Shown in pieces: positions 10,128 through 40,596 of a stretch of DNA of 64,000 bases. Within the stretch, counting starts at the first letter, position 1. Every line of letters begins with the position of its first letter. Location: the NCBI RefSeq assembly GCF_004209755.1, contig NZ_CP035913.1:5022001-5086000 (forward strand), in the 5' to 3' direction. The position numbers were made by a program, and so were the translations under genes. This DNA comes from Pseudoduganella lutea. Lineage in GTDB: Bacteria > Pseudomonadota > Gammaproteobacteria > Burkholderiales > Burkholderiaceae_D. The notes beneath the pieces were generated by a model, which was given only the letters and a program-made list of their open reading frames with translations, was not told the DNA's origin and ran no database searches.

Positions 10128-12215
10128 TCAGAAGTTCAGCTGCGCCGACACCCGGAACGTGCGTCCCAGCCCAGGCATCAGGTAGCCGCCCAGGTCGGGC
10201 GTCACATCGCGCCAGTAGAACTTGTCCAGCGCGTTGCGCACCTGCGCGCGCACGACCAGCGGCATGCCGTTGACGCGAGTGACGTACGACGTGCCGAAGT
10301 TCACCAAGTGGTACTTCGGCACGAATACCGTGTTTTCCTCGTCAAACGCTTTCTTGCCGGCGAATTGCCAGTCGCCGTTCACCTTAAAGGCCGGCGACAG
10401 CGCATATTCGGCGAATACCGTCGAACGGATGGCAGGCACGTTCGTCACGCGCTTGCCGTCGTAGAAGCTCTGTCCGGTGCCGCCCTGCTGCGTGCTCAAT
10501 GCGGCCAGCGAGGCGCCGATCGTCAGTTCTCGCGTGGCCTTGCCCTGCGCGGAGAATTCAAAGCCGCGGTGCTCGGCCTGGCCGTTGCGCACGAAGGTAT
10601 TGGCGGCGTCGGTGTATTCCAGGCCCTTCTCGATCTGGAACAGGGCGGCCGTATAACTGATGCCGTTCAACTCGGCCTTGGCGCCGATTTCCACCTGCTT
10701 CGACTTCGACGGTGCCAGTGCACGGTCTTCGTTGATGGTGCCGAGCGGCGCGATGCCGCCGTGCTGGAGGCCGCGCGCGTAGGTGGCGTACAGCGCCACG
10801 TTGCTGCGCGGGCTGTAGACCAGCGCCACGTTCGGCAGCCAGAAGTTGGCGCTGCTCGGCGCCACGCCCAGTTCATCGCGCTTCAGTTTCACGTAGCGCG
10901 CGCCCGCGTGCAGGGTCAGTTCGCTCGTGATGCCGACGATGTCCTGCACGAACAATGCGCGCTCGTTGTCCTTGCGGCGCACCGATGCGGGGCCCGTTTC
11001 CAGGTCGCTCCGCGGCGGCACCACCACGGGGCGGTAGATGTTGCTGGTGCCGGCCCATTCATAGACATCGTCGCCCCAGCTTTCCTTGTTGCCGTAGAAG
11101 GCGAAACCGGTCGACAGGTCGTGCGTCACGGTGCCGGTGGCGAAGCGGCCCTGCAGCATTGCCTGCGCGGTGAGCGGCTTCTTCTGTTCATCGAGGCTGC
11201 GGTAGTCATACACGTCGTAGTCGCCATTGCCGCAGAAGCCGGGCCACAGCAGCTCGGCCCCGCAGCCATAGGGGAAGGCCGTGTAGTCGTCACGCTTGAA
11301 TACGTGGCGGTTCGCCTTCACTTCGAACTTCCAGTCCGGCGCCAGCTGGTACAGGAAACGGGCGCCGAAGTTCATGCTTTCGGTGGCCACCGGGTAGCTC
11401 CATGGCTGGTCGTTGAGCAGCGTGTCGGCATCGACGACCGGCAGCGACACGCCATTGATCAGCTGGAAGCCGGGTGCCGACACCTGCGATTTCTTCTGGT
11501 AGTCGGCATCGACCTGCAACAGCGCCTGCGGCGAAATCTGCCAGTCGAACGCGCCGGAAACAAAGCTGCGGCGGCCGTCCGCGCCATCCACCCACGAGCG
11601 CAGCCGTTCGCCGGCCACGTTGATGCGGTAGCCGAAGCGGCGATCGTCGAAGCGGCCGCCTAGGTCCACGGTGCCCAGCAGGGTGCCGCGCTCGCTCACT
11701 TCGAACAGCACGGAGCGCAACGTCGTGCTGGTGGGGCGCTTGGTGACGTAGTTGACCACGCCGCCCGGCGCCGCCACGCCGGCCGTGATGCCCGCCAGGC
11801 CCTTCAGCACTTCGATGCTTTCCTTGTTTTCCAGCGGGATCTGGGTGTCGGCCGAAATCGCCAGGCCATCCTTGCGATAGCTGTTCGCATTGTCCAGCTT
11901 GAAGCCGCGGATCGAGAATTGCTCGGCATAGCCCACGGCGTTGTAGGCATCGCTGATGCTCGCGTCGTAGCGCGCCGCATCGGTGGTGGAGCGGATGTTC
12001 AGCGCCTGCATCTGCTCGCGCGTGATCACGCTGACGGACGTGGGCGTCAGCAGCAGCGGCCGTTCCGAGAAGCCGGCGACGGAAGCGGTTTCCGCCGTGC
12101 CGCGCACGGCGGTGACGACGACCTCGGTCATCGCGGGTTCATCGGCTTGCTGGGCGAAAGCGGGAAAAGCCTGCGCGATGGCCAGCGCGGCGGCGGAAAA
12201 AGTGGTCTTGTTCAT
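10128..12215 (-). CDS. TonB-dependent outer-membrane receptor under TPP-riboswitch control
   Basis: Outer-membrane active transporter of 695 aa. It has a signal peptide (to about residue 21), a plug domain with SVSVITREQM and IRGFKLDN, the GGVVNYVTKRP boundary, and a 22-strand barrel ending in a C-terminal Phe (VSAQLNF). By sequence alone it would be filed with siderophore receptors such as FhuE/FpvA. A TPP riboswitch 108 bp upstream instead indicates thiamine or a thiamine precursor as ligand, as for THI-regulated receptors known in other bacteria. The gene converges with the PnuC-family transporter/kinase pair 80 bp away, giving a plausible outer- plus inner-membrane uptake route. Confidence 0.93.
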   Translation of the reverse strand: MNKTTFSAAALAIAQAFPAFAQQADEPAMTEVVVTAVRGTAETASVAGFSERPLLLTPTSVSVITREQMQALNIRSTTDAARYDASISDAYNAVGYAEQFSIRGFKLDNANSYRKDGLAISADTQIPLENKESIEVLKGLAGITAGVAAPGGVVNYVTKRPTSTTLRSVLFEVSERGTLLGTVDLGGRFDDRRFGYRINVAGERLRSWVDGADGRRSFVSGAFDWQISPQALLQVDADYQKKSQVSAPGFQLINGVSLPVVDADTLLNDQPWSYPVATESMNFGARFLYQLAPDWKFEVKANRHVFKRDDYTAFPYGCGAELLWPGFCGNGDYDVYDYRSLDEQKKPLTAQAMLQGRFATGTVTHDLSTGFAFYGNKESWGDDVYEWAGTSNIYRPVVVPPRSDLETGPASVRRKDNERALFVQDIVGITSELTLHAGARYVKLKRDELGVAPSSANFWLPNVALVYSPRSNVALYATYARGLQHGGIAPLGTINEDRALAPSKSKQVEIGAKAELNGISYTAALFQIEKGLEYTDAANTFVRNGQAEHRGFEFSAQGKATRELTIGASLAALSTQQGGTGQSFYDGKRVTNVPAIRSTVFAEYALSPAFKVNGDWQFAGKKAFDEENTVFVPKYHLVNFGTSYVTRVNGMPLVVRAQVRNALDKFYWRDVTPDLGGYLMPGLGRTFRVSAQLNF

Positions 12216-12322
12216 CGATGTGCTCTTCTAATTCTCTTCTAGTTCTCAAGAACCAGCGAGGAAGCACACCAGGGGACGTTGGAAGGGACGAAGACTGCCT
12301 TGTGACGAACACCGCACTGCGC

Positions 12323-12437
12323 TTTCCTTCGCTGGCATTATCCAGATCAGGTACGAAGGGTATCTCTCACCCGGAGCAGGAAGCGTGAATTACTCTTTGA
12401 ATAATTCAGCAACCCGCCCAGGACCCCTAGCGAAGCC
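12323..12437 (-). promoter_or_regulatory. TPP riboswitch (THI element)
   Basis: On the minus strand the sequence starts CTTCGCTAGGGGTCC, continues through GGGTGAGAGATACCC, and ends with CTGATCTGGATAATGCCAGC followed by GAAGG. These are the hallmark P2/P3 and P4/P5 segments of the thiamine pyrophosphate aptamer. The 5' CTTCGCT and 3' AGCGAAG close stem P1. It lies 108 bp upstream of the TonB receptor start and in the same orientation. Confidence 0.96.
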
Positions 12438-12570
12438 GAGAGCTTATCATAGTTGCATACAATGTCGTGCGCCATTCGTCCGGGCCTATTGTTATACTTG
12501 TGGAAACATGGACTCCCAACGACAATATTGCATTGAACCGTCATCAACGTTCCACGCACAGGAGACCGCC

Positions 12571-33982: not shown

Positions 33983-34018
33983 CATCCGCGCTGGTGCTCC
34001 CGCGCGCCACGCTGGTGC
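33983..34018 (+). promoter_or_regulatory. Candidate NtrC binding sites
   Basis: GCGCCA-CGC-TGGTGC (34004-34018) differs from the 15-bp NtrC consensus GCACCA-N3-TGGTGC at one base. A second TGGTGC half-site (33992-33997, left arm poor) lies 21 bp, two helical turns, upstream. Both are 50-90 bp before the sigma-54 promoter, the normal enhancer position. Confidence 0.65.
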
Positions 34019-34069
34019 AAAAATATTCTCTTCCTCCCCGCGGCCGGCGCCCTGCCGGTCATAAAACGC

Positions 34070-34085
34070 TGGCACGGCGTTTGCA
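34070..34085 (+). promoter_or_regulatory. Sigma-54 (RpoN) promoter
   Basis: TGGCACG-N4-TTGCA is a perfect match to the -24/-12 consensus with correct spacing. It reads toward the ABC transporter/Rieske operon and has NtrC-like sites upstream, indicating nitrogen-limitation control. Confidence 0.9.
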
Positions 34086-34110
34086 TTAACTCTCGTATGA
34101 GTAGAAGCGG

Positions 34111-34214
34111 CTAGTGTTCCGCGGCGACGGCCAACGTCGCCACTAGAACATGGGGCATTGCTCTTGTGGATGCGTCCCCGGGACGTGCATCTGGTTGTCT
34201 ACAGACCTCAAGAG
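34111..34214 (+). ncRNA. Structured leader RNA, candidate NMT1-motif (xanthine/urate) riboswitch
   Basis: The transcript from the sigma-54 promoter begins near 34095 and has a leader of about 300 bases. It contains a stem GGCGACG / CGTCGCC (34123-34129 with 34135-34141), closed by either CTAGT/ACTAG or the competing GTGTTC/GAACAT pairing. A second hairpin is GATGC-GTCC / GGAC-GT-GCATC (34169-34191), enclosed by CTCTTG / CAAGAG (34161-34166 with 34209-34214). The last arm overlaps an AGAGAG that could be a ribosome-binding site for an in-frame ATG at 34223. Identification as an NMT1-type aptamer rests on the downstream genes (NMT1-domain protein, 8-oxoguanine-deaminase-like enzyme), not on an alignment. 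Confidence 0.5.
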
Positions 34215-34393
34215 AGAACGCCATGCCGCACCTTTTCGCTTCCCGCATTTTTCGCTTCCTGCATTGCCGCTGCCCGGCGGCCCTCCCGGTTTCATTTCCC
34301 CGCGATGCAAGCCCCTCCATGCCGTTCGCACGGCGTGTGGCTGGCCGCATCCCGCATCGCGTCGTTCCCGCTTTCCAACCCCAGAGAGTGCCC

Positions 34394-35398
34394 ATGAAAT
34401 CCATCCCCGCCATGAACCCCGCGCGCCGCGCCGCGCTGGCCTTCTGTTTCGTCACCGCTTTCGGCGTGGCCGCCGGCAATGCGGCCGCCGCCGACAAGGT
34501 CACCTTCCTTACCTCCTGGTATGCCCAGGCCGAACACGGCGGCTTCTACCAGGCTGTGGCCGAAGGCATCTACCGCAAGCATGGCCTCGACGTCACCATC
34601 AGGATGGGCGGCCCACAGGTCAACGGCATGCAGCTGCTGGCCACCGGCCAGGCCGACTTCTTCATGGGCTACGACCTGCAGGTGCTGAAAAGCGTGGAGC
34701 AGGGCATTCCCGCCACCACCGTGGCGGCCAGCTTCCAGACCGACGCGCAGGGCATGATGACGCATACCGATGTGAAGGGCCTGGCCGGCCTGAAGGACGG
34801 CAAGACCGTGCTGGTGTCGACCTCGGGGCGCACCACATGGTGGCCGTGGCTGAAGGCGAAGTATGGCCTGACCGAGGCGCAGGGCCGGCCCTACACGTTC
34901 AACCTGCAGCCGTTCCTGGCCGACCCCGATTTCGCCCAGCAGGCCTACCCGTCGTCCGAACTGTTCCAGGCCGCGAAGGCCGGCGCGAAAACCAATTTCT
35001 ACCTGTTCGCCAACGACGGCTACCCGCCCTACGGCACAACCGTGGTCGCCATGCAGAAGCTGGTCAAGGACAAGCCGGACCTGGTGGCCCGCTTCGTGCG
35101 CGCGTCGATGGAAGGCTGGAAAAGCTACCTGGCCAACCCGGCGCCGGCCAATGCGCTGATCAAGAAGGAAAACCCGAACATGAAGGACGACCAGCTGGCC
35201 TACGCCGTCGGCAAGCTGAAGGAATACAGCTTCGTCACGGGCGGCGACGCGGCGCAGCAGGGCATCGGCACGATGACGGATGCGCGCTGGCGGCGCACCT
35301 ATGACTTCATGGTGTCGGCTGGCCTGCTGAAGAAGGAAACCGACTGGAAGCAGGCCTACACCACGCAGTTCGTCAAGGGCCTGAACGTCATGCCCTGA
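34394..35398 (+). CDS. ABC transporter substrate-binding protein, NMT1/SsuA-like
   Basis: Periplasmic binding protein of 334 aa for the adjacent importer. The signal peptide is AALAFCFVTAFGVAAGNAAAA; the mature part has FLTSWYAQAEHGGFYQAVAEGIYRKHGLDV and ATGQADFFMGYDLQVLKS, typical of the NMT1/THI5 family that binds pyrimidine, purine, taurine or nitrate-like ligands. ATG 34394 gives a normal signal peptide. The frame is open back to ATG 34223, just after the structured leader, which would add 57 residues; this is a less likely but testable start. First gene of a six-gene operon behind a sigma-54 promoter. Confidence 0.92.
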   Translation: MKSIPAMNPARRAALAFCFVTAFGVAAGNAAAADKVTFLTSWYAQAEHGGFYQAVAEGIYRKHGLDVTIRMGGPQVNGMQLLATGQADFFMGYDLQVLKSVEQGIPATTVAASFQTDAQGMMTHTDVKGLAGLKDGKTVLVSTSGRTTWWPWLKAKYGLTEAQGRPYTFNLQPFLADPDFAQQAYPSSELFQAAKAGAKTNFYLFANDGYPPYGTTVVAMQKLVKDKPDLVARFVRASMEGWKSYLANPAPANALIKKENPNMKDDQLAYAVGKLKEYSFVTGGDAAQQGIGTMTDARWRRTYDFMVSAGLLKKETDWKQAYTTQFVKGLNVMP

Positions 35399-35473
35399 GC
35401 ACCACCGCATTGCAGCACCCCGGGCGAAGGCGACCATTCTGGCACGCCGGCCCACCTGTAACAGGAGTCAACC

Positions 35474-36502
35474 ATGCTCGTCACCCAACAGAAAGTCCTC
35501 CGCAAATTCTGGTATGCGCTGATGCCGATGTCCGCGCTGGACAAGGGCCCGCAACCATTCACGCTGCTGGGCGAAAACATCGTCGTGTGGAAGGGCGCCG
35601 ACGGCAAGCCGGCCGCGCTGCGCGACCGTTGCTGCCACCGCACCGCGAAGCTGTCGAAAGGCTTCGTCGAGAACGGCAACATCGTGTGCGGTTACCACGG
35701 CTGGACGTACGATTGTTCGGGCACCTGCGTGCGCATTCCGCAAAACCCCGATGCTAGCATCCCGGCCGGTGCGCGCGTGCCGGCCTACCACTGCGATGAG
35801 CGCTATGGCTATGTGTGGGTGGCGCTGGAAGAGCCGCTGCAACCGATCCCGTACTTTCCCGAGGAAGAGGCGCCCGGCTACCGACGCATCCTGCAGTTCT
35901 ACGAACAATGGAAGACGTCGCCGCTGCGCGTGATGGAAAACTCGTTCGACAATTCGCACTTCAGCTTCGTGCACAAGGCGAACTTCGGCATGATCGACAA
36001 CCCGGTACCGGCAAAGTACGAGTTCCGTCCGAACGACTGGGGCTTCGAGGCGGAGACCCACGTGCCGGTCAGGAACCCGGAAGCGAGCTTCCGCATCACC
36101 GGAACCTCCGAGCCGGTCACCGAACGGCACCTGACGAACCGCTGGTACATGCCGTTCTCGCGACGCTTCGGCTGCGTGTACCCGGCATCGGGCATCCATC
36201 ACATCATCTACAACTGCGCCACGCCGATCGACGACGGCACGCTGATGCTGGTGCAGTGGCTGTACCGCAACGACAGCGAGGAAGCCTGCTCGACGCAGGA
36301 GCTGATCGACTGGGACCGGCCGATCACGACGGAAGACCGCGACATCCTGGAAGCCACCGATCCCGATGCCTGCGTCGACACGCGGCGCCGCGTCGAATTC
36401 CACATGGAGTCCGACAAGCCGGGCCTGATGATGCGCCGCATGCTGATGGACCTGCTTACGCGGCATGGCGAATCCGAAGTGCACAACCCGCCGGAGGCAT
36501 GA
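35474..36502 (+). CDS. Rieske non-heme iron oxygenase, alpha subunit (VanA-like)
   Basis: Oxygenase of 342 aa. The Rieske cluster ligands are C53-x-H55 (RCCHR) and C72-x2-H75 (CGYHGW). The catalytic mononuclear iron site begins N156-x2-D159-x2-H162-x4-H167 (NSFDNSHFSFVH), with electron-bridging Asp159. Single-subunit oxygenases of this kind, paired with a VanB-type reductase, typically demethylate or hydroxylate small ring compounds. The reductase is encoded four genes on. Set between a purine-type ABC importer and a deaminase, it is likely to oxidise or N-demethylate a nitrogen heterocycle; substrate unproven. Its stop overlaps the ATPase gene start. Confidence 0.92.
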   Translation: MLVTQQKVLRKFWYALMPMSALDKGPQPFTLLGENIVVWKGADGKPAALRDRCCHRTAKLSKGFVENGNIVCGYHGWTYDCSGTCVRIPQNPDASIPAGARVPAYHCDERYGYVWVALEEPLQPIPYFPEEEAPGYRRILQFYEQWKTSPLRVMENSFDNSHFSFVHKANFGMIDNPVPAKYEFRPNDWGFEAETHVPVRNPEASFRITGTSEPVTERHLTNRWYMPFSRRFGCVYPASGIHHIIYNCATPIDDGTLMLVQWLYRNDSEEACSTQELIDWDRPITTEDRDILEATDPDACVDTRRRVEFHMESDKPGLMMRRMLMDLLTRHGESEVHNPPEA

Positions 36503-37338
36503 TGAAACGCGACGACGAGCTGCTGCTGGCCGGGGCCGGGGCTGGGGCCGTGGCCGCGGCTTCCCCGGCGCCCGCGGTACTGTACGCCAACGGGGTGGAG
36601 AAAACCTATCCCAACGGCACCCGCGCACTGGACCGCGTGAAGCTGCGCATCGGGCGCGGCGAATTCGTGTCGCTGCTGGGGCCTTCCGGCTGCGGCAAGA
36701 GCACGCTGCTGAAGATGTTCGCCGGGCTGGAAACCCCGTCGGCCGGCCACGTGCGCTGGTGGGGCGAGGGTATGGCCACCGTCGACACGCCGGGGCGCAC
36801 GCTGGCGATGGTATTCCAGGAGGCGACCCTGATGCCGTGGGCCCGGGTGCATGACAACGTGCGCCTGCCGCTGGACCTGAAAGGCGTACCGCGCGCGCAG
36901 GCGGCGCCGCGCGTGGACCAGGCGCTCGAGCTGGTCGGCCTGGCGAAGTTCGGCCACGTCTACCCGCGCGAGCTGTCCGGCGGCATGCAGATGCGTGCAT
37001 CGATCGCCCGGGCGCTGGCCACCGAACCGAACCTGCTGCTGATGGACGAGCCGTTCGGCGCGCTGGACGAATTCACCCGCAACCGGCTCGATGCCGACCT
37101 GCGCGACCTGTGGGCCCGGCGTGACCTGACCGTGGTGTTCGTCACGCACAGCATCTACGAGGCGGTGTACCTGTCGTCGCGCGTGGTGGTGATGGCGGCG
37201 CGGCCCGGCCGCGTGATCGCCGACGTGGCCATCGAAGGGCCGCGCGTGCGCGACGACGATTTCCGCATCTCGCCGGCCTTCATGGCCTATTGCAAGCAGC
37301 TGTCCGACCTGCTGGTCGAGGCCAACGGCCAACACTGA
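36502..37338 (+). CDS. ABC transporter ATPase (SsuB/TauB family)
   Basis: ATP-binding subunit of 278 aa. It contains Walker A GPSGCGKST, Q-loop VFQEATLMPW, signature LSGGMQMR, Walker B LLLMDEPFGALDE and the H-loop VTHSIYEAVYL. This is the nitrate/taurine/pyrimidine-importer class. About 27 Ala/Gly-rich residues precede the ABC domain. GGAGG is four bases before ATG 36502; the ATG three bases earlier overlaps the Rieske stop and is also possible. It works with the binding protein and permease of the same operon. Confidence 0.94.
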   Translation: MKRDDELLLAGAGAGAVAAASPAPAVLYANGVEKTYPNGTRALDRVKLRIGRGEFVSLLGPSGCGKSTLLKMFAGLETPSAGHVRWWGEGMATVDTPGRTLAMVFQEATLMPWARVHDNVRLPLDLKGVPRAQAAPRVDQALELVGLAKFGHVYPRELSGGMQMRASIARALATEPNLLLMDEPFGALDEFTRNRLDADLRDLWARRDLTVVFVTHSIYEAVYLSSRVVVMAARPGRVIADVAIEGPRVRDDDFRISPAFMAYCKQLSDLLVEANGQH

Positions 37339-37349
37339 GGAGAAGCGCC

Positions 37350-38150
37350 ATGCTAAAACAACCCCTGATCGCCGACGCGCGCGTGCGCCGCGCACTGGCG
37401 CCGCTGGCACTCGGCCTGCTCTTGCTGGCGGTGTGGCAGGCCGTCTGCGTGACGCTGCAGGTGCCGGTCTACCTGGTGCCGTCGCCTGCCGCCATTGCCG
37501 CCACGCTGGCCGAGGACTGGCAACTGCTGCTCGATGCGCTGCTCGTGACCTTGCGCATTACCTTCTTTGCGTTCGCGCTGGCCACGGTGGTGGGCGTGGC
37601 CGTGGCGTTCCTGTTCGTGCAGAGCAAGCTGCTCGAAGCCTGCCTGTTCCCGTACGCGATCCTGCTGCAGGTCACGCCGGTGGTGGCGATCGCGCCGCTG
37701 ATCATCATCTGGGTCAAGACGCCGGCCGCCGCGCTGACGATCTGCGCCACGATGATGGCCGTGTTCCCGATCATCTCGAACACCGTGCTGGGACTGCGCA
37801 GCGTGAATCCAGGCCTGCTGAACCTGTTCCGGCTGAACCGCGCCACGCGCTGGCAGGTGCTGGTGCGGCTGCGCGTGCCGAGCGCGTTGCCCAGCTTCTT
37901 CGGCGGCCTGCGCATCGCCAGCGGGCTGGCGCTGATCGGCGCCGTCGTCGCCGAGTTCGTGGCCGGCACGGGCGGCAGCAGCACCGGGCTGGCCTACCAG
38001 ATCCTGCAGGCCGGTTTCGAACTGAACATCCCACGGCTGTTCGCTGCACTGTTCATGATCACCGTCACCGGCGTGCTGCTGTTCGCGCTGATGTCGACGC
38101 TGGCCCGCGTGTGCCTGGCCCACTGGCATGACAGCGAGGCCGAAGCATGA
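37350..38150 (+). CDS. ABC transporter permease (SsuC/TauC-like)
   Basis: Inner-membrane permease of 266 aa with about six membrane segments (BPD_transp_1). It contains the EAA-type loop around LFRLNRATRWQVLVRLRVPSALP and the segment LQVTPVVAIAPLIIIW. GAGGAG precedes the ATG. It is 11 bp after the ATPase gene and completes the importer for the NMT1-like binding protein. Its stop overlaps the start of the reductase gene, so transport and oxidation genes are tightly coupled. Confidence 0.93.
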   Translation: MLKQPLIADARVRRALAPLALGLLLLAVWQAVCVTLQVPVYLVPSPAAIAATLAEDWQLLLDALLVTLRITFFAFALATVVGVAVAFLFVQSKLLEACLFPYAILLQVTPVVAIAPLIIIWVKTPAAALTICATMMAVFPIISNTVLGLRSVNPGLLNLFRLNRATRWQVLVRLRVPSALPSFFGGLRIASGLALIGAVVAEFVAGTGGSSTGLAYQILQAGFELNIPRLFAALFMITVTGVLLFALMSTLARVCLAHWHDSEAEA

Positions 38151-39097
38151 TGGCCACGTTCACGGTGCGGGTGGCCCGCAAGTGGCGCGAGGCGGACCGC
38201 GTGCACGCCTTTGAACTGCGCGATCCGGATGGCGCGGCGCTGCCGGCTTTTTCCGCCGGTGCCCACGTGGACGTGCATCTGCCGGGTGGACTGGTGCGCC
38301 AGTACTCGCTGTGCAACGATCCGCACGAGACCGCGCGCTACGTCATCGCCGTGCTGCTGCAGGAGGGTGCCGGATCGCGGGCGATGCACGCGCTGGAAGA
38401 GGGCGCGCTCGTCACGATCGGTGGTCCGCGCAATCACTTCGGGCTCGATGCCGGCGCGCGGCGCTCGCTGCTGGTGGCCGGCGGCATCGGCATCACGCCG
38501 CTGCTGGCGATGGCGGAACGGCTGAACAGGCTCGATCGTCATTTTGCCCTGCATTACTGCGTGCGTTCGGCAGGCGCCGCTGCGTTTGCCCGCAGCCTGC
38601 GCGAGGCGCCTTATGCCCACTGCGTGCAGGTGCATGCGGACGACGGCCCCGTGTCGCAGCGGCTCGACCTGGCGGCGCTGCTGGCCGGTGCCTGTGCGAA
38701 TACACACCTTTACGTCTGCGGCCCGGCCGGCTTCATCGCGATGGTGCGGGAGGCGGCGCTGGCGCATGGCATCGCGGCAGGGCGCATCCATAGCGAACAT
38801 TTCGCCAATGCGGGCCCCATCGCCGACGTGTCGTCGTTCGACGTGCGCCTCGCCAACAGCGGCAGGACCATCGCCGTGCCGGCCGGGCAGAGCGTCGTCG
38901 ACTGCCTGGCCGCGCATGGCGTGGCGATTCCGGTCTCGTGCCGGCAAGGCGTGTGCGGCAGTTGCCTCACCACCGTGCTGGAAGGCGAGCCGGATCACCA
39001 GGATTGCTATCTCACCGAGACCGAGCGGGCGCTGGGCGACCGTTTTTTACCTTGCTGCTCGCGTTCCCGGACGCCGCTGCTGGTGCTGGACCTTTGA
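38147..39097 (+). CDS. PDR/VanB-family oxidoreductase (reductase for the Rieske oxygenase)
   Basis: Electron-transfer protein of 316 aa with three parts in order: a flavin-binding barrel (QYSLCNDP, residues about 62-69), an NAD(P)-binding domain (LLVAGGIGITPLLAMA), and a C-terminal plant-type [2Fe-2S] ferredoxin with cysteines in SCRQGVCGSC and a later Cys near LPCCSRS. This is the phthalate-dioxygenase-reductase/VanB order. It would pass electrons from NADH to the Rieske oxygenase encoded upstream. ATG 38147 overlaps the permease stop; ATG 38150 is also possible. Confidence 0.94.
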   Translation: MMATFTVRVARKWREADRVHAFELRDPDGAALPAFSAGAHVDVHLPGGLVRQYSLCNDPHETARYVIAVLLQEGAGSRAMHALEEGALVTIGGPRNHFGLDAGARRSLLVAGGIGITPLLAMAERLNRLDRHFALHYCVRSAGAAAFARSLREAPYAHCVQVHADDGPVSQRLDLAALLAGACANTHLYVCGPAGFIAMVREAALAHGIAAGRIHSEHFANAGPIADVSSFDVRLANSGRTIAVPAGQSVVDCLAAHGVAIPVSCRQGVCGSCLTTVLEGEPDHQDCYLTETERALGDRFLPCCSRSRTPLLVLDL

Positions 39098-39106
39098 AAG
39101 ACAACG

Positions 39107-40516
39107 ATGAATAATTTTTTGATCAAGAACGCCGCCGCGATCGTGACCGGCTTGCAGGGCGAGGCCGCGCGCCATGCCGGCCCGGACATCCGCGTGGTGA
39201 ACGGGCGCATCGCCGCGCTGGGACGGCTGGAAGCGCTGCCGGGCGAGCGCGTGGCCGATGCCGCGGGCTGCGTCGTCTACCCGGCGTGGGTGAACACGCA
39301 CCACCATCTGTTCCAGTCGCTGCTCAAGGGCGACGCGGCCGGCATCGACCTGCCGCTGACGCCGTGGCTGGCCGCGACGCCATACCGCTTCCGCGCCGCG
39401 TTCGACGAGCACCTGTTCCGGCTCGCCGCGCGCATCGGGCTGGTCGAACTGCTGCGCTCCGGCTGCACGACGGTGGCCGACCACAACTACCTGTACTGGC
39501 CCGGTATGCCGTTCGACGGTTCGGCGATCCTGTTCGAGGAAGCGGAGCGGCTGGGCATGCGCTTCGTGCTGTGCCGCGGCGGCGCCACGCAGACGCGCCA
39601 GCTGGAAGCCGACTTGCCCGCCTGCCTGCGGCCGGAAACGCTCGATGGCTACCTGGCCGACATGGAGCGCATCACGCAGCGCTGGCACGATCCGGCGCCG
39701 GACGCGATGCGCCGGGTCGTGATGGCGCCGACGACACCGCTGTACTCGATGGCACCGGCCGAGCTGCGCACCGTGGCGGCGGAAGCGCGGCGGCTGGGCA
39801 TCCGGCTGCACAGCCACCTGTCCGAAACGGTCGAGTACCAGAACGCCGCGCACGGCAAGCATGGCACGACGCCAGTACGCTTCGCCGCCGAGCAGGACTG
39901 GCTGGGCAGCGACGTGTGGTTCGCCCACCTCGTCAAGCTGGACGACGAGGAAATCGCGCTGCTGGGCGCCACCGGCACCGGCGTCGCCCACTGCCCGCAG
40001 AGCAACGGGCGCCTGGGTAGCGGCATCGCGCCGATCCGCCAGCTGGAGGCGGCCGGCGCCGCGATCTCGATCGGCGTCGACGGTGCCGCCTCGAACGAAG
40101 CGGCGGACATGATTTCCGAAACCCACGCCGCCTGGCTGATGCAGCGCGCGCGGGGTGGACAGGATGCGCGGCCCGTCCACCGCGGCGGCACGTTCGAAGG
40201 CGGCGCCGACGCCGCCACCATCGACGACGTGGTGCGCTGGGGCACGCGCGGCGGCGCGCAAGTGCTCGGCCTCGATGGCCTGGGCACGCTGGAAGTGGGC
40301 ATGGCGGCCGACATCGCCGTCTACAGTCTCGACGACCCGCGCTACTTCGGGCTGCACGACGTCGCCATCGCCCCCGTCGCCTCCGGCGGCCGCCCCGCGC
40401 TGCGCCTGCTCACCGTGGCCGGCAAGCCCGTCGTCGAACACGACACCATCCCCAACCTCGACCTGCGCGAACTGGCCGCCGACGCCCGCAGCGCAGTCGC
40501 CCGGTTGCTGCGGTGA
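39107..40516 (+). CDS. Amidohydrolase, 8-oxoguanine deaminase-like
   Basis: Metal-dependent hydrolase of 469 aa of the ATZ/TRZ amidohydrolase group. Zinc ligands are visible: H65-x-H67 (NTHHHLF), the His in RLHSHLSET, and the Asp in IGVDGAASNEAADM. The composite GLVELLRSGCTTVADHNY and HCPQSNGRLGSG match enzymes annotated as 8-oxoguanine deaminase (8-oxoguanine to urate) and hydroxyatrazine hydrolases. Last gene of the NMT1-ABC/Rieske operon, nine bases after the reductase gene. A urate-forming deaminase would fit a leader RNA sensing xanthine or urate. Exact substrate not provable from sequence. Confidence 0.9.
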   Translation: MNNFLIKNAAAIVTGLQGEAARHAGPDIRVVNGRIAALGRLEALPGERVADAAGCVVYPAWVNTHHHLFQSLLKGDAAGIDLPLTPWLAATPYRFRAAFDEHLFRLAARIGLVELLRSGCTTVADHNYLYWPGMPFDGSAILFEEAERLGMRFVLCRGGATQTRQLEADLPACLRPETLDGYLADMERITQRWHDPAPDAMRRVVMAPTTPLYSMAPAELRTVAAEARRLGIRLHSHLSETVEYQNAAHGKHGTTPVRFAAEQDWLGSDVWFAHLVKLDDEEIALLGATGTGVAHCPQSNGRLGSGIAPIRQLEAAGAAISIGVDGAASNEAADMISETHAAWLMQRARGGQDARPVHRGGTFEGGADAATIDDVVRWGTRGGAQVLGLDGLGTLEVGMAADIAVYSLDDPRYFGLHDVAIAPVASGGRPALRLLTVAGKPVVEHDTIPNLDLRELAADARSAVARLLR

Positions 40517-40596
40517 AATATTACTCAAAACCGGGGTCTGACCCCGATTCTGAGTAATATTTCCCAAAACCGGGGTCAGACCCCGGTTTTGGGAAA
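40516..40596. repeat. Double palindromic intergenic element with GGGGTCAGACCCC core
   Basis: Two nested structures. AAATATTACTCA (40516-40527) pairs with TGAGTAATATTT (40551-40562) around a GGGGTCTGACCCC core. Then 40560-40596 is a near-perfect 37-base palindrome centred on GGGGTCAGACCCC, flanked by TTTCCCAAAACC/GGTTTTGGGAAA. It separates the convergent deaminase and lipoprotein genes and may also act as a bidirectional terminator. Confidence 0.9.

Follow-up and report, generated by a model that had tools for sequence, protein, structure and literature searches.

A conserved xanthine-riboswitch operon of Pseudoduganella lutea, probably devoted to nitrogen scavenging from a modified purine

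A 64,000-nucleotide stretch of the Pseudoduganella lutea genome, hereafter the window (G000:C1:5022001-5086000 of a single 7.5-Mb contig), carries six plus-strand genes spanning positions 34394-40516, which encode a substrate-binding protein, a Rieske oxygenase, an ATPase, a permease, a reductase and an amidohydrolase. This cassette is real, conserved and of a known kind, that of the purine-oxidation operons headed by a xanthine riboswitch, and it is very probably nitrogen-regulated and purine-directed. We consider it likely that the operon serves, under nitrogen starvation, to scavenge a modified purine by import, oxidation and deamination, with output to the xanthine/urate route; this judgement embraces the whole scheme with either type of oxidation and hence overlaps in part with the C8 route weighed below. 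New here are a composite of a putative sigma-54 promoter and a riboswitch at fixed geometry, which sequence comparison supports well, the placement of both enzymes, and links to the urate pathway and to XdhB.

Family models recovered all six genes in the set, order and strand described by the original prediction, which had been made from the letters of the window. The two ATGA overlaps that it reported were found at 36499-36502 and 38147-38150. The binding protein exceeds the gathering threshold of PF09084 (NMT1) by far (98.6 versus 20.5 bits), and its best PDB matches are 4nmy and 3ix1. The reductase carries FAD, NAD and 2Fe-2S domains, so that the label 'VanB-type' is fair as a resemblance. 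In the oxygenase, the Rieske ligands C53, H55, C72 and H75 and the mononuclear-iron motif N156/D159/H162/H167 with E287-D288 are all present; both iron sites are thus complete, as had been claimed, and their residues do not vary among 35 aligned sequences from close relatives.

The operon leader contains a xanthine-I riboswitch aptamer that the original prediction had overlooked (Table 1). The conserved core, GAGUAGAAGCGG ... CAUUGCUC, is present in the covariance-model alignment, and G10 of the crystal construct has a counterpart in this RNA. RNAs of the RF03054 family are reported to bind xanthine and urate (PMC7373994, PMC8266621, PMC9295807), and the genes found downstream of them by Yu and Breaker 2020 (PMC7373994) include NMT1/tauA, hcaE-like oxygenase and PRK12393 genes. 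The statement that no substrate had been assigned to this gene set was therefore right only in part, as that study had already tied such genes, PRK12393 among them, to purine oxidation.

Among genome contigs, 315 stretches encode relatives of the oxygenase, and 80 loci were kept for counts; they come from Noviherbaspirillum, Paraburkholderia, Caballeronia, Cupriavidus, Ramlibacter, Polaromonas, Thiomonas, Pseudomonas, Stutzerimonas and others, the closest oxygenase being that of Pseudoduganella umbonata (97% identity). Genes for the binding protein, ATPase, permease and deaminase lie on the same strand within 7.5 kb of the Rieske gene in 62 of the 68 loci with room on both sides. A riboswitch precedes the oxygenase in 70 of the 80 loci, 48 being found by the core pattern and 22 of the remaining 32 by Rfam. 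The oxygenase is present in tandem copies of about 60% identity in 17/80 loci, and a xanthine permease gene adjoins the cassette in L057 and, as judged by clustering, in L061.

The proposed sigma-54 promoter, TGGCAC-N5-TTGCA, has its -24 GG and -12 GC ten bases apart at a fixed distance from the predicted transcript. With the spacing usual for sigma-54, transcription would start at about 34096, and the first paired bases of the riboswitch coincide with this expected start. In the window the pattern TGGCAYN7GC occurs 11 times against 12.6 expected, so that the case for the promoter depends entirely on its position being conserved among relatives. There, TGGCAY-N7-GC stands 29-32 bases before the GTAG core in 62/62 pattern-found riboswitches (besides that of the window, 48 plus-strand and 13 divergent minus-strand ones; 59 distinct upstream stretches), with a chance of 0.003 for each; a first, narrower pattern had matched 28/62 and was widened to this one after inspection. 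Among the 22 Rfam-found riboswitches, 16 show GG-N10-GC with this spacing, in the form TGGCAY in 13 and GGCAT in three (L028, L044, L048). Altogether, 78 of the 84 riboswitches of the window and the 80 relatives (62 pattern-found and 22 Rfam-found) have a sigma-54-like site upstream at a fixed distance, counts that are not independent as the loci are related; candidate sites in L050, L062 and L083, which depart from the -22..-25 geometry and have no TGGCA, were not counted. In a sample of 300 genomes, GG-N10-GC occurs at -27..-31 in 16/16 riboswitches over the cut-off (that of P. lutea included), the range being read off the data and the chance match being 5.9% each. Of five riboswitches below the cut-off, two have GG-N10-GC further upstream and three, including a second copy in P. 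lutea, are without it.

Sites for NtrC were scored against the consensus TGCACYN5GGTGCA. The best upstream site reaches at least 10/12 positions in 26 of the 62 leaders compared to 3% of shuffled regions, the leaders being related; NtrC is a candidate activator of the operon. A term search of the main texts of PMC7373994, PMC8266621 and PMC9295807, to which this comparison was confined, gave no mention of sigma-54, and in that of PMC7373994 'sigma' occurs only within Sigma-Aldrich.

A sample of 300 Burkholderiales genomes, whose species may overlap with the 80 loci, includes 14 carriers of the oxygenase (E below 1e-80). The urate pathway was scored through OHCU decarboxylase alone. This enzyme is encoded in 12/14 carriers versus 62/286 others (p 1.4e-6), a PRK12393 protein over the cut-off in 10/14 versus 7/286 (p 1.3e-11; the carriers without it are G049, G137, G144 and G180), and a riboswitch match at E<=0.001, some under the Rfam cut-off, in 9/14 versus 5/286 (p 8e-11); these p values ignore kinship among the genomes. 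In 49 carrier genomes, namely that of P. lutea and 48 selected among the 80 relatives, most of them from named isolates, OHCU decarboxylase was found in 49/49, as was XdhB over its cut-off, a count that covers carriers only. These data strongly tie the cassette to urate catabolism. Together with the riboswitch, the conserved sigma-54 site and the enrichment of NtrC-like sites, they support what had been proposed for the operon, namely that a purine is imported, oxidised and deaminated under nitrogen control.

As XdhB is kept in all 49 carriers, the cassette is no substitute for xanthine dehydrogenase, and a replacement of this enzyme as its general role was rejected. This speaks against a plain HpxDE-type role, that is, a molybdenum-independent bypass in which the oxygenase would make urate from xanthine or hypoxanthine while the deaminase would supply xanthine from guanine. 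Dioxygenases of the xanthine-I riboswitch class do resemble the hpxD and hpxE products (PMC7373994), but the oxygenase of the window is only 26.6% identical to the RefSeq-named HpxD from Pantoea and lies in a different clade, and the deaminase falls far below the guanine deaminase cut-off. We regard this bypass as quite unlikely.

Maximum-likelihood analysis placed the oxygenases of the cassettes in a clade of their own (support 100/100), nested in a wider group (100/100) that also includes HpxD and Ndm; the oxygenase is not inside the Ndm clade, and three other Rieske proteins of P. lutea fall outside the whole group. HpxD orthology was rejected on the basis of this separate clade and the low identity. 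Identity is 31% to an NdmA-like and 28% to an NdmB-like protein, and the predicted fold (pLDDT 86.7) is closest to SxtT/GxtA and NdmA. We modestly favour the oxygenase as a putative N-demethylase acting on a ring N-methyl group over a ring-carbon hydroxylase.

The deaminase belongs to PRK12393 (NF009059; 767 bits, cut-off 543). Its second-best family model is 8-oxoguanine deaminase (PRK08203), for which it scores 392 bits versus a cut-off of 532, and it reaches 106 bits versus 375.4 for guanine deaminase (TIGR02967). The description '8-oxoguanine-deaminase-like' is therefore fair as a resemblance, but identity as 8-oxoguanine deaminase was rejected at the curated cut-off. The best PDB match is 2paj, a putative cytosine/guanine deaminase (717 bits); the others of the top three are an unnamed amidohydrolase and an 8-oxoguanine deaminase, and triazine hydrolases rank lower. 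The enzyme thus does not group with non-purine hydrolases, an outcome that would have spoken against a purine substrate. By motif it has the tetrad of the subtype III guanine deaminases (Gln, Glu, His, Asp) as Q70, E240, H274 and D325, a tetrad described for guanine-type deaminases in PMC13054789. Elsewhere in the P. lutea genome, three adjacent genes encode a guanine deaminase, a xanthine permease and a protein that passes the 8-oxoguanine deaminase cut-off, and the PRK12393 enzyme therefore probably acts on a different guanine analogue.

A second PRK12393 deaminase of P. lutea, 56% identical to the first, is encoded within G000:C1:275218-281376 (L017:10218-16376). Upstream of it lies a gene for a BMP-type binding protein; downstream come a xanthine riboswitch that stays below the threshold (33 bits) and has no sigma-54 site, a pair of Amidohydro_2 genes and a gene for a UbiD-type decarboxylase.

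We asked which substrate would fit both enzymes. The riboswitch ligands, the type of deaminase and the urate pathway point to a compound upstream of xanthine or urate, and since GuaD and XdhB are already present, a modified guanine is the simplest need for an additional importer, oxygenase and deaminase. Kinship with Ndm would fit an N-methylguanine, whereas kinship with HpxD and 8-oxoguanine deaminase would fit oxidation of guanine at C8. In this C8 route, the Rieske enzyme would hydroxylate guanine to 8-oxoguanine, which the deaminase would convert to urate, xanthine being bypassed. It draws on 8-oxoguanine deaminase being the second-best family model, on the distant relation of the Rieske gene to HpxD, annotated as xanthine hydroxylase, and on urate being a riboswitch ligand (PMC7373994). 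We nevertheless hold it to be possible but doubtful, as the deaminase is under the 8-oxoguanine deaminase cut-off, a protein over this cut-off is encoded elsewhere, and the genome's guanine deaminase and XdhB would already convert guanine to urate. An adenine route, in which the oxygenase would make isoguanine (2-hydroxyadenine) and the deaminase xanthine, would need both enzymes for its two steps; however, by motif the catalytic set matches guanine deaminases, whose target is the 2-amino group (PMC13054789), and no computed result points to adenine, which makes this route highly improbable.

The substrate might also be a non-purine heterocycle, such as a pterin or a thiamine-related pyrimidine, with xanthine and urate merely reporting nitrogen status. 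The PDB matches of the binding protein do include thiamine-precursor binders and enzymes, and the deaminases of this superfamily are described as promiscuous (PMC13054789). Against this stand the riboswitch, the co-occurrence with the urate pathway, the purine-type Rieske group and the guanine-type tetrad, and we find such a substrate decidedly improbable. Identity as a pterin deaminase was considered as well: the 399-residue enzyme that was cloned from Variovorax has another named relative, Arad3529 (PMC9513972), and it was set apart by its description only. The most likely substrate thus appears to be a modified guanine, perhaps N-methylated, that would be converted to xanthine or urate.

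The direction of switching was approached by folding. CUCUUG, which forms the 3' strand of stem P1 in the aptamer, is able to pair with CAAGAG at 34209-34214, which overlaps the Shine-Dalgarno (SD)-like stretch that precedes the start codon nearest the aptamer, ATG 34223, an arrangement that would free the SD on ligand binding. An SD with an upstream ATG is present in 30/44 leaders, which are related sequences (open and in frame in 22/30, not so in 8/30), and absent from 14/44. In the window the minimum-energy fold without ligand pairs the SD-like stretch (-56.5 versus -52.1 kcal/mol with P1 enforced), unlike in L020, L046 and L053, in which the unconstrained minimum-energy fold is the aptamer state. 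When P1 was enforced in 31 leaders, SD accessibility rose by more than 0.1 in 13 and fell by more than 0.1 in three, the mean change being +0.10 versus +0.05 with shuffled linkers. Between the two divergent Pseudomonas riboswitches there is one compensatory difference (UCUUGC/GCAAGA versus UCUGGC/GCCAGA). In a shuffle of 12 distinct combinations, covariation between P1 and SD showed no excess (16 observed versus a mean of 16.7, a value reached in 3658 of 5000 shuffles for the observed count), the AGAG anchor of this test being present in only 33/62 leaders. Modelled folding leans weakly to an ON switch; the OFF switch of Yu and Breaker 2020 (PMC7373994) was inferred from a single E. coli reporter.

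Because the P1 3' strand can sequester the SD-like sequence without ligand, a bolder version can be drawn, in which the sigma-54/NtrC promoter and a xanthine- or urate-induced ON riboswitch, opposite to the reported OFF switch, would form an AND gate over a previously undescribed pathway that would demethylate and deaminate N-methylguanines from RNA turnover to xanthine, the oxygenases being a third purine-type Rieske clade. As a joint claim we judge it unlikely.

For the broader scavenging scheme, the following order of steps can be proposed. Upon nitrogen shortage, sigma-54 RNA polymerase, probably with NtrC, would transcribe the operon, and the riboswitch at the RNA start would sense xanthine or urate and adjust translation of the importer. 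The NMT1-type importer would take up a guanine-like base, one that is a poor substrate of guanine deaminase. The oxygenase and its reductase would remove a ring N-methyl group or, less likely, hydroxylate a ring carbon, and the deaminase would strip the exocyclic amine. The product, xanthine or urate, would be passed through xanthine dehydrogenase and the urate-allantoin route to ammonium.

Several observations weigh against this scheme. A reductase of at least 35% identity is near the cassette in only 21/80 loci. By core pattern and Rfam, no riboswitch was found in 10/80 loci, some with incomplete flanks (L025, L026, L035, L043, L052, L063, L072, L084, L085, L091), and no sigma-54 site before 6/84 riboswitches (L034, L050, L062, L065, L080, L083), all from Ramlibacter or Caenimonas, although three other Ramlibacter loci do have one. 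Among the 14 carriers, G137 and G181 are without OHCU decarboxylase, and five (G052, G137, G180, G181, G240) are without a riboswitch match. The sister relation of the cassette clade to Ndm has a support of only 86/49, with a long-branch warning from the tree program. N-demethylation is weakened as no formaldehyde-handling gene was seen among the classified neighbour proteins, of which no full search was made; such genes adjoin the Ndm genes on the caffeine plasmid. Finally, P. lutea already has guanine deaminase, 8-oxoguanine deaminase and XdhB, and we thus only infer a need for the cassette.

Table 1. Coordinates of the operon and its leader in the window
Feature	Position	Strand	Basis
NtrC-like 17-mer, 10/12 positions of TGCACYN5GGTGCA	34003..34019	+	sequence match to the consensus
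Putative sigma-54 promoter, -24 TGGCAC, -12 TTGCA	34070..34085	+	sequence; conserved position in relatives
Xanthine-I riboswitch aptamer (RF03054, NMT1 RNA)	34094..34168	+	47 bits versus gathering 36; E 2.8e-7 for the window
3' strand of aptamer stem P1 (CUCUUG)	34161..34166	+	complementary to CAAGAG; sequence and fold; putative role
Shine-Dalgarno-like AAGAGAG and ATG, upstream start in frame with the binding protein	34210..34225	+	sequence
NMT1/THI5-type substrate-binding protein of ABC importer	34394..35398	+	PF09084, 98.6 bits
Rieske non-heme iron oxygenase, purine-type group, own clade	35474..36502	+	PF00355, PF19112
ABC importer ATPase	36502..37338	+	PF00005; alternative start 36499 gives the ATGA overlap
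ABC importer permease	37350..38150	+	PF00528
Reductase, presumed oxygenase partner, PDR/VanB-type domains	38147..39097	+	PF00970, PF00175, PF00111
PRK12393-family deaminase (amidohydrolase), purine type	39107..40516	+	NF009059, 767 bits; catalytic residues by motif

The neighbourhoods of the cassette vary among relatives. In Pseudomonas lopnurensis (L057:10141-12202) it also includes a 2-oxoglutarate/Fe(II) oxygenase together with another NMT1 binding protein, which gives the impression of one binding protein per oxygenase. Ramlibacter-type loci (L026, L027 and similar) have a GlcD-like FAD protein, a Rid protein and a creatininase-like hydrolase as neighbours and, in some, a flavodoxin-like oxidoreductase and a RutR-like regulator beside the cassette too. 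Divergent minus-strand xanthine riboswitches with a sigma-54 site occur in 13 loci. A protein of about 250 residues (L036:6507-7259, minus strand), which clusters in 17 loci, mostly from Pseudomonas, was read as adjacent to such a riboswitch in L033 and L036; the one member examined has no Pfam, NCBIfam or PDB match. A riboswitch, a sigma-54 site and the oxygenase are also present on a contig binned as Edaphobacter (Acidobacteriota; L092), possibly misbinned or transferred, and a c-di-GMP-I riboswitch lies downstream of the cassette in Burkholderia sp. 8Y (L086:13465-13553).

Directly after the operon of P. lutea, the palindrome GGGGTCWGACCCC of a REP-like dispersed element occurs at 40533-40545 and 40572-40584, the pair being 39 bases apart; it has 71 copies in the genome, often paired among the places listed, and the reversed control has none. 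Elsewhere in the window, a TPP riboswitch (12307-12438, minus strand) lies ahead of a long open reading frame (10128-12215, minus strand) whose product resembles, by eye, a TonB-dependent receptor.

The study of Yu and Breaker 2020 (PMC7373994) gave no answer to the questions of why xanthine is monitored by cells and what function the oxygenases under riboswitch control have. The sigma-54-like site before most of the riboswitches offers nitrogen scavenging as a candidate answer, and the retention of XdhB and OHCU decarboxylase in all carrier genomes examined suggests a substrate upstream of xanthine or urate that falls outside the usual route. The Rieske clade and PRK12393, both orphan enzyme families so far, thereby become testable as purine enzymes.

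The operon resembles the xanthine-I operons of that study in its riboswitch family and in its NMT1/tauA, hcaE-type oxygenase and PRK12393 genes; the fixed promoter-aptamer geometry and the links to the urate pathway and XdhB are added here. Like the purine-acting hpx system, whose HpxDE is named in RefSeq as a molybdenum-independent xanthine hydroxylase, it has a Rieske oxygenase accompanied by a PDR/VanB-type reductase, but it differs from hpx by its ABC importer and PRK12393 deaminase, its separate and distant oxygenase clade and the retention of XdhB. With the methylxanthine N-demethylases NdmA and NdmB it shares the purine-type Rieske group and a similar predicted fold; however, its oxygenase forms a separate clade, and the operon has no NdmC-, NdmD- or NdmE-like gene and instead a deaminase and an ABC importer. 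The deaminase, finally, shares its superfamily and, by motif, the catalytic tetrad with 8-oxoguanine deaminase (PRK08203) and with the N2,N2-dimethylguanine hydrolases (NdmH, PMC13054789), the latter likened by description only, but unlike PRK08203 it belongs to PRK12393.

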